From Nitrospirota bacterium (GTDB lineage: Bacteria; Nitrospirota; Thermodesulfovibrionia; Thermodesulfovibrionales; UBA1546), in the NCBI GenBank assembly GCA_016208915.1, contig JACQXE010000072.1, forward strand, positions 39,891 to 103,890: a DNA stretch of 64,000 nucleotides. The letters are read 5' to 3'. Shown here piece by piece: positions 14,458 to 37,442 of this stretch (within the stretch, counting starts at the first letter, position 1; each line of letters starts with the position of its first letter). The notes below the pieces were generated by a model. It had not been told where the DNA came from. It did not search any database and saw only the letters and a program-made list of their open reading frames with translations. A program made the translations under genes and the position numbers.

Positions 14458-14517
14458 GTCATGCTGGCTTGTCCAGCATCCTTCTTTGAAGAAAGATTCC
14501 CGACAAGCGGGAATGAC
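14458..14517. repeat. Palindrome pair A (CTTGT/ACAAG pentaloop family)
   Basis: Two inverted hairpins: ATGCTGG-cttgt-CCAGCAT (14461-14479) and ATTCCCG-acaag-CGGGAAT (14496-14514), bounded by GTC and GAC. Same architecture as 34343-34397 and the 36460/36819 pair. It lies in the glgP-FKBP gap (convergent genes) and might act as a terminator for both. Confidence 0.85.
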
Positions 14518-34342: not shown

Positions 34343-34397
34343 GTCATTCCGACTTGTTCGGAATCCTTCTGAAAGATTCTGGGCAAGCCAGAATGAC
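34343..34397. repeat. Palindrome pair B (CTTGT/ACAAG pentaloop family)
   Basis: ATTCCGA-cttgt-TCGGAAT (34346-34364) and ATTCTGG-gcaag-CCAGAAT (34376-34394), bounded by GTC and GAC. Same layout as 14458-14517. The small ORF 34243-34428 on this stretch is repeat-derived. Confidence 0.85.
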
Positions 34398-36459: not shown

Positions 36460-36481
36460 GTCATTCCGGCTTGTCCGGAAT
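36460..36481. repeat. Palindrome C1 (CTTGT pentaloop)
   Basis: ATTCCGG-cttgt-CCGGAAT preceded by GTC. It supplies the stop codon (TGA on the minus strand) of the GIY-YIG pseudogene. Its inverted partner is at 36819-36840. Confidence 0.9.
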
Positions 36482-36798
36482 CTTTCCGAGAACGTCTTCA
36501 TACAGATCCTTCATAAAAGGATTCTTCTGCCTGATAAGCTCTATCTTCTCGTCTCGGCTCAAATTCTTTATCTGTTTTTCACGTATTATCGTACTTCGGC
36601 TATCCCTGCAAAGCTCATAATAAACAAGCTTATGCAGGTAATACCTGGCCGTAAAACAATTAGATTGATGTTGTTCTTATGTTCATAAATCCTTCGTATG
36701 AGATCATTTGTTACCCCGATCCCCGACAAGCGAGGACAGGCTCCCAAAGTCGGCCTCGCATTAGCCATAATATACACAGCAAATATATTCTCCGTCAT
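36461..36798 (-). pseudogene. GIY-YIG nuclease pseudogene between inverted palindromes
   Basis: The track shows only the first frame, AVYIMANAR...[16 protein letters not shown], which is GIY-YIG-like (YIM, GVTNDL, RRxxEH). After EHKNN the homologous sequence continues in another frame: [16 protein letters not shown], then [19 protein letters not shown], ending GKIPDKPE and a stop inside palindrome C1. So there is one frameshift. In addition, the segment between YIM and GVTNDL, which normally carries the second catalytic strand, is replaced by [12 protein letters not shown], encoded by another palindrome-like sequence with an ACAAG loop (36716-36750). The gene is dead as drawn. Its position exactly between C1 and C2 is the notable part. 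Confidence 0.8.
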
Positions 36799-36818
36799 CC
36801 AGCCATTATATCAGAAAG

Positions 36819-36840
36819 ATTCCGGACAAGCCGGAATGAC
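36819..36840. repeat. Palindrome C2 (ACAAG pentaloop)
   Basis: ATTCCGG-acaag-CCGGAAT followed by GAC, the inverted partner of C1. Pairs A and B have the two hairpins only 16 and 11 bp apart; here they are 337 bp apart with the GIY-YIG pseudogene between. Confidence 0.9.
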
Positions 36841-36915
36841 ACCCACACAAAAACCTGAAGACCCTTTTTAATTAACAATAGTATATTTTACATCAGTACA
36901 GTCCAAAATAACTAA

Positions 36916-37087
36916 AAAAGGCTGAATGCCGAAGAAATACAATGACGACACCTTATAAAATTAATCCACATCTAAATGTTCATAAAAATATCTGTCATAT
37001 TGTTCCCTTTAAAGCTGCTTATTAAAACGAGGTTGCACATCTTAATGTCCTGTCGATTCATTGTATTTATGAAGCGTTCAGCCTTTT
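36916..37087. repeat. 172-bp non-coding element with terminal inverted repeats
   Basis: The left end AAAAGGCTGAATGC...AATACAATGA matches the reverse complement of the right end (AAAAGGCTGAACGC...AATACAATGA) over about 30 bp with few differences. The AT-rich centre has no ORF. It looks like a miniature inverted-repeat element or a long imperfect hairpin. It fills most of the gap between the pseudogene and the HNH gene. Confidence 0.65.
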
Positions 37088-37121
37088 CATAATTCTTATT
37101 TTGAACAACTGTGATTTTACC

Positions 37122-37442
37122 TTATTCCTCCTCGCTTATTCTCTCTATATATTCATCCCATTCCCATGGAAGCATATGTTTTTTCTTTGTGTTACATTCT
37201 TTGCAAGCAGGGGCTATATTCCCTTTTGTTGAGTGTCCGCCTCTGATGAGAGGCACTATGTGGTCCATTGTAAGCTCTTTTGGATTAAATTTTCTTCTGC
37301 AGAAATAGCATATCCCTTCTGAACGCTTTCTTTTCCACCACTGCGACCTTCTCAGTTCCTGTGTCTTTGTGCGCTCTTTTTTCAGGTCAGCTTCTGTTAC
37401 ATCAGAAATGAAAGGCACGGTTACCGTTTTATCTCGTTCCAT
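37122..37442 (-). CDS. HNH endonuclease
   Basis: 106 aa. The zinc-binding HNH core is complete: CYFCRRKFNPKELTMDHIVP, then GGHSTKGNIAPACKECNTKK. The basic N-terminal part (RRSQWWKRKRSEG) may bind nucleic acid. It overlaps the GGDEF gene upstream by 22 bp and ends the minus-strand run from rpsF, so it could be a housekeeping nuclease of that operon rather than a mobile one. Substrate unknown. Confidence 0.88.
   Translation of the reverse strand: MERDKTVTVPFISDVTEADLKKERTKTQELRRSQWWKRKRSEGICYFCRRKFNPKELTMDHIVPLIRGGHSTKGNIAPACKECNTKKKHMLPWEWDEYIERISEEE

Follow-up and report, generated by a model that had tools for sequence, protein, structure and literature searches.

CGTC-tagged palindrome pairs of bacteria and a small Slx1-lineage GIY-YIG nuclease as their probable partner

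The window analysed here, a stretch of 64,000 nucleotides from a Nitrospirota bacterium, carries three pairs of short inverted palindromes (Table 1), in one of which the two palindromes enclose the remains of a GIY-YIG nuclease gene. This raises the question of whether the gene and the palindromes form a single system, in the way that other repetitive palindromes are tied to a transposase, or whether they are neighbors for some other reason. We propose, with a probability of roughly 0.7, that the palindromes are CGTC-type REPs arranged in REPIN-like pairs, and that their dedicated partner is a small nuclease of the Slx1 lineage that spreads the hairpins.

Hairpin pairs and a decayed nuclease gene in the window

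All three pairs display the same outward-facing layout of two GTC-AT...stem-CTTGT-stem hairpins, an architecture that we call S7 (7-bp stem, CTTGT loop). Pair A and the single hairpins of pair C fold more stably than shuffled DNA (z values of -3.7 to -5.5), and so does pair B (z of -3.4), but as one large fold-back. Almost nothing separates the two hairpins in A or in B, and those of C enclose a gene whose product is a GIY-YIG homologue (48% over residues 35-94). The gene is broken: the YIG half of its catalytic motif is split by approximately 25 extra bases, which look like a degenerate member of this hairpin family (CCTCG-CTTGT-CGGGG), a frameshift follows further on, and its TGA stop (36463-36461) overlaps hairpin C1. 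A previous reading of the window, made from the letters alone and referred to here as the sequence-only reading, had described the three pairs with their pentaloops and positions as well as the decayed gene ending in C1, and on these points it was accurate.

Table 1. Positions of hairpin pairs, single hairpins and the gene remnant within the window
Feature	Position	Strand	Basis
Pair A	14458-14517		
Hairpin A1, GTC-ATGCTGG-CTTGT-CCAGCAT	14458..14479	+	sequence, fold, family pattern
Hairpin A2, inverted, ATTCCCG-ACAAG-CGGGAAT-GAC	14496..14517	-	sequence, fold, family pattern
Pair B	34343-34397		
Hairpin B1, GTC-ATTCCGA-CTTGT-TCGGAAT	34343..34364	+	sequence
Hairpin B2, inverted, ATTCTGG-GCAAG-CCAGAAT-GAC	34376..34397	-	sequence
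Pair C	36460-36840		
Hairpin C1, 3' hairpin of the GIY-YIG element, GTC-ATTCCGG-CTTGT-CCGGAAT	36460..36481	+	sequence, fold z -5.5
Hairpin C2, 5' hairpin of the GIY-YIG element, ATTCCGG-ACAAG-CCGGAAT-GAC	36819..36840	-	sequence, fold z -4.7
Decayed GIY-YIG nuclease gene (pseudogene), between C2 and C1	36461..36798	-	sequence, homology, tree
Extra bases splitting the YIG part of the catalytic motif, degenerate-hairpin-like	36718..36745	-	comparison with intact relatives

In a nuclease tree the pair C gene belongs to a 20-row S7-CTTGT clade (SH-aLRT 100), in which 18 of the 19 other members are accompanied by S7 hairpins. Whereas the resident S7 copy is dead, the window's contig encodes, at another place, an intact nuclease belonging to a different hairpin class. 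Two further features were observed to the right of pair C. A repeat of approximately 220 bp (window 36878-37118) has at least 13 more copies in its own genome, with 81-90% identity, and occurs once only among the matches listed in relatives; an HNH-type ORF (37122-37442) adjoins pair C, and seems unrelated to the GIY-YIG element since homologous stretches are found elsewhere in relatives.

The family pattern GTCATNCNNNCTTGTNNNGNAT has 54 exact matches in the source genome (2.5 Mb, completeness 98.8) and its reverse has none, and the S7 family there amounts to 53-54 copies, pairs A, B and C included; genome-wide hairpin counts, here and below, are pattern searches. Watson-Crick pairing is found in 207 of 216 free stem pairs, as opposed to 135 on average, and at most 154, upon shuffling, which bears out on a genomic scale the compensatory stem variation that had been pointed out within the window. 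Close pairs are oriented with GTC outward in 14 cases, with neither inward nor tandem arrangements, and among 31 S7 pairs the base that precedes GTC is T in 29 and C in 2, while the base after GAC is always A. It is of note that the stems within a gene-less pair are never identical (0/13 in the source genome, about 24% being expected), an avoidance that may reflect the cost of long perfect palindromes.

The relationship between gene-bearing and gene-less pairs was viewed in the sequence-only reading as one of descent, with A and B carrying the same two hairpins as C and being its deletion derivatives. The architecture is indeed shared, but the stems are not: A and B have stems other than that of pair C, which is present in only 6 of 53 source-genome hairpins. 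In addition, gene-less and gene-bearing S7 pairs have only their ends of approximately 28 bp in common, the interiors sharing a terminal core (CYTTCT...AGAARG) and nothing else, and no gene remnants could be recognized in them by eye. An origin of the gene-less pairs by deletion is hence not supported.

The nuclease family and its hairpins

The intact GIY-YIG protein encoded on the window's contig was employed as a query against 150 genomes of the order, and matches were found in 67 of them. About 90 loci were retrieved with their flanks, and nearly all of them are, by eye, bracketed by inverted GTC-tagged hairpins of very different sequences. Flanks were complete, and could be scored, for 75 homologues. 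With a strict detector based on a 5-bp stem (a setting of at least 7 misses the ATTGCGAG class), hairpins were detected upstream of 62, downstream of 70 and on both sides of 57, compared to 11 of 500 control windows (2%) located 700-1450 bp away in the same loci. A relaxed detector (within 150 bp), scored like the strict one against its own controls (37/500, 7%), identified hairpins on at least one side of all 75 and on both sides of 59. No unflanked close homologue was therefore seen in the order, where the sequence-only reading had asked whether palindromes flank intact copies. A scan of GTDB with one genome per species yielded hairpins on at least one side of 65 of 75 loci and on both sides of 45 (controls, 206/2256), with several of the remaining loci showing variant hairpins by eye. 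According to record titles, these loci cover over a dozen phyla, including Pseudomonadota, Nitrospirota, Nitrospinota, Omnitrophota, Patescibacteria, Chloroflexota, Firmicutes, Armatimonadota, Zixibacteria, Bipolaricaulota and others. The hairpins are inverted around the gene at distances that are typical of each clade. Distant GIY-YIG genes in viral contigs were hairpin-flanked in one case out of 21, finished phage records contained no close homologue, and searches of Rfam and PADLOC were without a match.

A point against the proposal is that in Neisseria and Rhizobium-type loci the hairpins closest to the gene sometimes depart from the canonical orientation. In Neisseria gonorrhoeae (loci L396 and L173) the GIY-YIG gene is located among dRS3-like repeats, its upstream hairpin being reversed in direction, and in Sinorhizobium meliloti (L397) a GIY-YIG gene between hflX and mazG is flanked by CCTC-ATCCCTGTG-CTCGT-CACAGGGAT hairpins. 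These CCTC-tagged hairpins resemble the RIME repeats of Sinorhizobium.

The protein itself consists of a single stand-alone GIY-YIG domain of approximately 95-105 amino acids, devoid of accessory domains, and PF01541 was recognized in 37 of 37 homologues. The catalytic Tyr, Tyr, Gly, Arg, His and Glu positions are invariant in these 37 sequences, as is an Asn at position 84; the UvrC lineage is characterized by a C-terminal Asn (PMC1564403), to which this residue may or may not correspond. An AlphaFold2 model (pLDDT 90) has UPF0213 proteins and Slx1 as its best PDB folds, ahead of noise, and a sequence search of the PDB identified 1zg2, 1ywl, UvrC and Slx1; the first two have been assigned to a bacterial Slx1-like group (Dunin-Horkawicz 2006, PMC1564403), whose stand-alone minimal domain with conserved Tyr, Tyr-x-Gly, Arg and Glu is also that of the present nuclease. 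Sequence and predicted fold thus place the enzyme with UPF0213/Slx1 and not with the UvrC/I-TevI lineage. In contrast to the nuclease described here, no link to repeats was found reported in the open-access literature for known members of the Slx1-like group, and no biochemistry was found there for this nuclease family. Slx1 itself selects its substrates by structure and cleaves branched DNA (PMC9071465, PMC8287910), and a natural guess is therefore that its bacterial relative would cut folded hairpins at their foot.

Hairpins from the different loci were sorted by architecture into classes, whose names were coined in this analysis: apart from S7, which is that of the window, these are S8 (8-bp stem, 4-nt loop), S9 (9-bp stem, CTTGA-type loop), a GTCTT-loop class, NNGAG (ATTGCGAG and kin) and a TGAGCTTG class. 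A more distant GIY-YIG clade (L124, L125, L127, L129 and L131) is accompanied by fully palindromic GTCATCCTGAGCTTGTCGAAGGATGAC-type repeats, recorded as a sixth class. On a tree of 91 nucleases, the distribution of hairpin classes requires 8 changes after labels were tidied by hand (TCGACC merged into NNGAG and locus L072 reassigned; the first count was 12), and 200 shuffles all required at least 41, with a mean of 48. Furthermore, the upstream and downstream hairpins agree in class at 54 of 58 loci, where shuffling gave 13 on average and no more than 27, and the flanks of S7 genes carry the ATTCCGG stem in 31 of 36 cases, where 17.1 were predicted from the local background (reached in 0 of 200,000 simulations). 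The hairpin arms travel with the gene, instead of matching local hairpins. These data provide strong evidence for a partnership between hairpin classes and GIY-YIG clades.

The same partnership is seen in the abundance of the repeats. S7, S8 and ATTGCGAG hairpins were counted in the same 150 genomes, with reversed-pattern controls that were all zero; two flanking hairpins were subtracted for every positive genome, the extra ones of genomes with two gene copies staying in the count, and labels were permuted within families only. For each of the three nuclease clades, presence is predictive of how abundant its own hairpin class is (p=5e-5 in all three cases, the floor of 20,000 permutations) and not of any other class (six tests, p 0.34-0.89), clade assignments deriving from the same 90 loci and genera within a family not being independent. 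For the third class, only copies with ATTGCGAG-like flanks of their own were taken as positives; an uncorrected test with all members of the clade gave p=1.2e-5. Abundance with and without the gene, which the sequence-only reading had proposed to compare, is thus not equal, yet S7 hairpins persist where the gene is missing, with at least 10 copies in 28 of 133 genomes that lack the S7 nuclease clade. Upon a second search, those genomes yielded no more than weak homologues, homologues from other clades and a few fragments, of which two 23-residue 3' gene ends in one genome (G059) are the only ones that resemble remnants. The proposal that palindromes and GIY-YIG gene relate to each other much as REPs do to RAYT is supported by the inverted GTC flanks, the match between clade and class, and abundance within families.

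Mobility, mechanism and alternative explanations

At loci that are otherwise conserved, the presence of hairpin pairs and gene varies with the lineage. Hairpins are absent from relatives' orthologues of loci B and C, and the distance from nadD to the next gene, which is 261 bp at locus B, is 7-9 bp in three relatives (L300, L304 and L306). At one intergenic site of Shinella plasmids, the gene and four hairpins are present in three records and neither is found in several others. None of the loci compared yielded the exact junction of an empty site or a target-site duplication, the surrounding intergenic DNA being too divergent. The comparison of genomes G088 and G138 gave no clean empty site, related Sinorhizobium strains differ only in the number of repeats upstream of the GIY-YIG gene, the Rhizobium GlxA locus is not clean, and Shinella offers presence and absence but not the exact junction. 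Near-identical copies within one genome have boundaries that lie outside the hairpins and seemingly ride in other units with terminal inverted repeats (MITE-like); recent nuclease-driven movement is therefore not seen among them.

Several such larger units were observed. In G088 and G138 (L348-L351, L362 and L364-L367) hairpin pairs with a constant spacing of 69 bp lie within a larger repeat (AAGCTTTGCTTCGGGGTAAC...), and are apparently carried along by a MITE-like element. Whole GIY-YIG units, hairpins included, are also found inside longer repeated units (L069/L071, L073/L074, L113/L119 and L104/L118), and some of the longer units around GIY-YIG genes have, by eye, terminal inverted repeats of their own (for example GGTTCWTCTCC... 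and TGTTACG...).

In the mechanism that we propose, the complete form of the element would be a [Y]GTC-hairpin, the nuclease gene and a hairpin-GAC[R], and the common form would have the same two hairpin ends around a short, unrelated filler. The nuclease may recognize a folded single strand, either extruded or on the lagging strand, through stem length, loop and GTC foot, and could nick it at the foot of the hairpin, by analogy with Slx1-type enzymes, which cut at branch points; the freed or broken end would then be copied into new sites by host replication and repair. GIY-YIG chemistry is hydrolytic, and consequently no covalent transposase intermediate is expected. The same property is a counterpoint to nuclease-driven spread, in that it is not obvious how hydrolysis would provide for strand transfer. 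We lean towards the broader notion that self-spreading palindrome pairs, propagated by a hydrolytic, hairpin-reading GIY-YIG nuclease of the Slx1 lineage, make up a new class of repeat that parallels REP/RAYT, and account for the whole orphan CGTC-REP superfamily and its relatives in a dozen or more phyla.

The alternative that survives best, although we consider it unlikely, is homing into resident repeats, in which pairs would spread by other means and a GIY-YIG homing endonuclease would cut an empty pair and be copied in by break repair. GIY-YIG homing enzymes are established, and like I-TevI the present nuclease resides in a putatively selfish unit; moreover, gene-bearing and gene-less forms share only their hairpin ends, as if the gene had been dropped into a pair, and hairpin abundance would likewise correlate with a nuclease that needs targets. 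The flanks of the gene, however, keep the stem of its clade despite the presence of other stems locally, which is not what insertion into resident pairs predicts. In addition, sequence and fold point to UPF0213/Slx1, and not to the lineage that holds the homing enzymes (PMC1564403), and unlike I-TevI-type endonucleases the protein has neither a DNA-binding accessory domain nor an intron, and the unit has hairpin ends of its own.

A house-keeping role, in which the nuclease resolves or trims the hairpins and cruciforms of the repeats and is retained by hairpin-rich genomes, while the hairpins spread by other means, appears improbable. It would be in line with the branched substrates of Slx1-type enzymes (PMC8287910, PMC9071465), and the avoidance of identical stems in gene-less pairs fits a cost of long palindromes; however, it accounts neither for a gene placed between two hairpins at clade-typical distances across phyla, nor for the repeated decay of that gene and its patchy presence (67/150 genomes). 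More improbable still is the movement of ordinary REPs by a RAYT (Y1 HUH) or other transposase, with the GIY-YIG gene as a passenger. The source genome does encode nine clear Y1_Tnp proteins and a weak one, and some hairpin pairs ride within other MITE-like units, but GTCA-tagged hairpins lie near none of these 10 genes, on the basis of which a RAYT was rejected locally as the mover; a passenger, furthermore, would show neither clade-specific architecture nor class-specific abundance, and Di Nocera et al. (PMC3733652) describe no transposase gene flanked by CGTC REPs. Finally, the view of the hairpins as transcription terminators, or as generic intergenic palindromes next to a small gene by chance, can practically be dismissed, for although hairpins are common in these intergenic regions, they occur in 2-9% of control windows versus about 80-95% per side of the gene in the order, and the GTC tag, the paired inverted orientation and the match to clade are not properties of terminators.

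Relation to known repeats and significance

CGTC-tagged REPs, which include the RPE-type repeats of Rickettsia and those of Neisseria, have been reported to "apparently lack a dedicated transposase", and Table 1 of that survey gives them no associated transposase gene (Di Nocera et al. 2013, PMC3733652). They are described as having a CGTC, TGTC or CCTC tag, stems of about 8-9 bp that start with AT, loops of 4-5 nt and a CCA-like tail, and as forming outward dimers, with inward ones being rare, in the intergenic regions of many phyla (PMC3733652). The hairpins studied here present most of these features, notably the unpaired YGTC tag and the outward dimers. S8 and S9 follow the rule for stem and loop and have the CCA tail, whereas S7 starts with AT and has a 5-nt loop but a stem of 7 bp and a CTT/CCT tail; the ATTGCGAG and TGAGCTTG classes lie outside the published description. 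Where that description has no transposase, the gene associated here is a GIY-YIG nuclease, which is not a known transposase.

The closest parallel is the REPtron, in which GTAG-tagged REPs are associated with RAYT/TnpA_REP, an HUH transposase of the IS200/IS605 type (PMC8266576). Both systems place tagged hairpins, with the tag at the hairpin foot, around a small nuclease gene, include many gene-less pairs, and match the clade of the enzyme to the type of hairpin. They differ in the tag, which is GTC here and GTAG in the REPtron, and in the enzyme, a hydrolytic GIY-YIG nuclease (PF01541) that, unlike the HUH tyrosine transposase, has no known strand-transfer chemistry. No paper in the open-access literature, subscription journals and preprints lying outside this coverage, was found to join GIY-YIG proteins with REPs, CGTC repeats, RPE or dRS3.

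CGTC-type palindromes are widespread intergenic repeats of bacteria that have been published since 2013 as being without a dedicated enzyme, and for the small stand-alone GIY-YIG proteins of bacteria no role was found reported in the open-access literature; by linking the two, each gains a function that can be tested. The match between nuclease clades and hairpin classes supplies sets of cognate and non-cognate enzymes and hairpins with which specificity can be addressed. These observations also suggest at least two separate origins of hairpin-guided spread, involving nucleases unrelated to each other.
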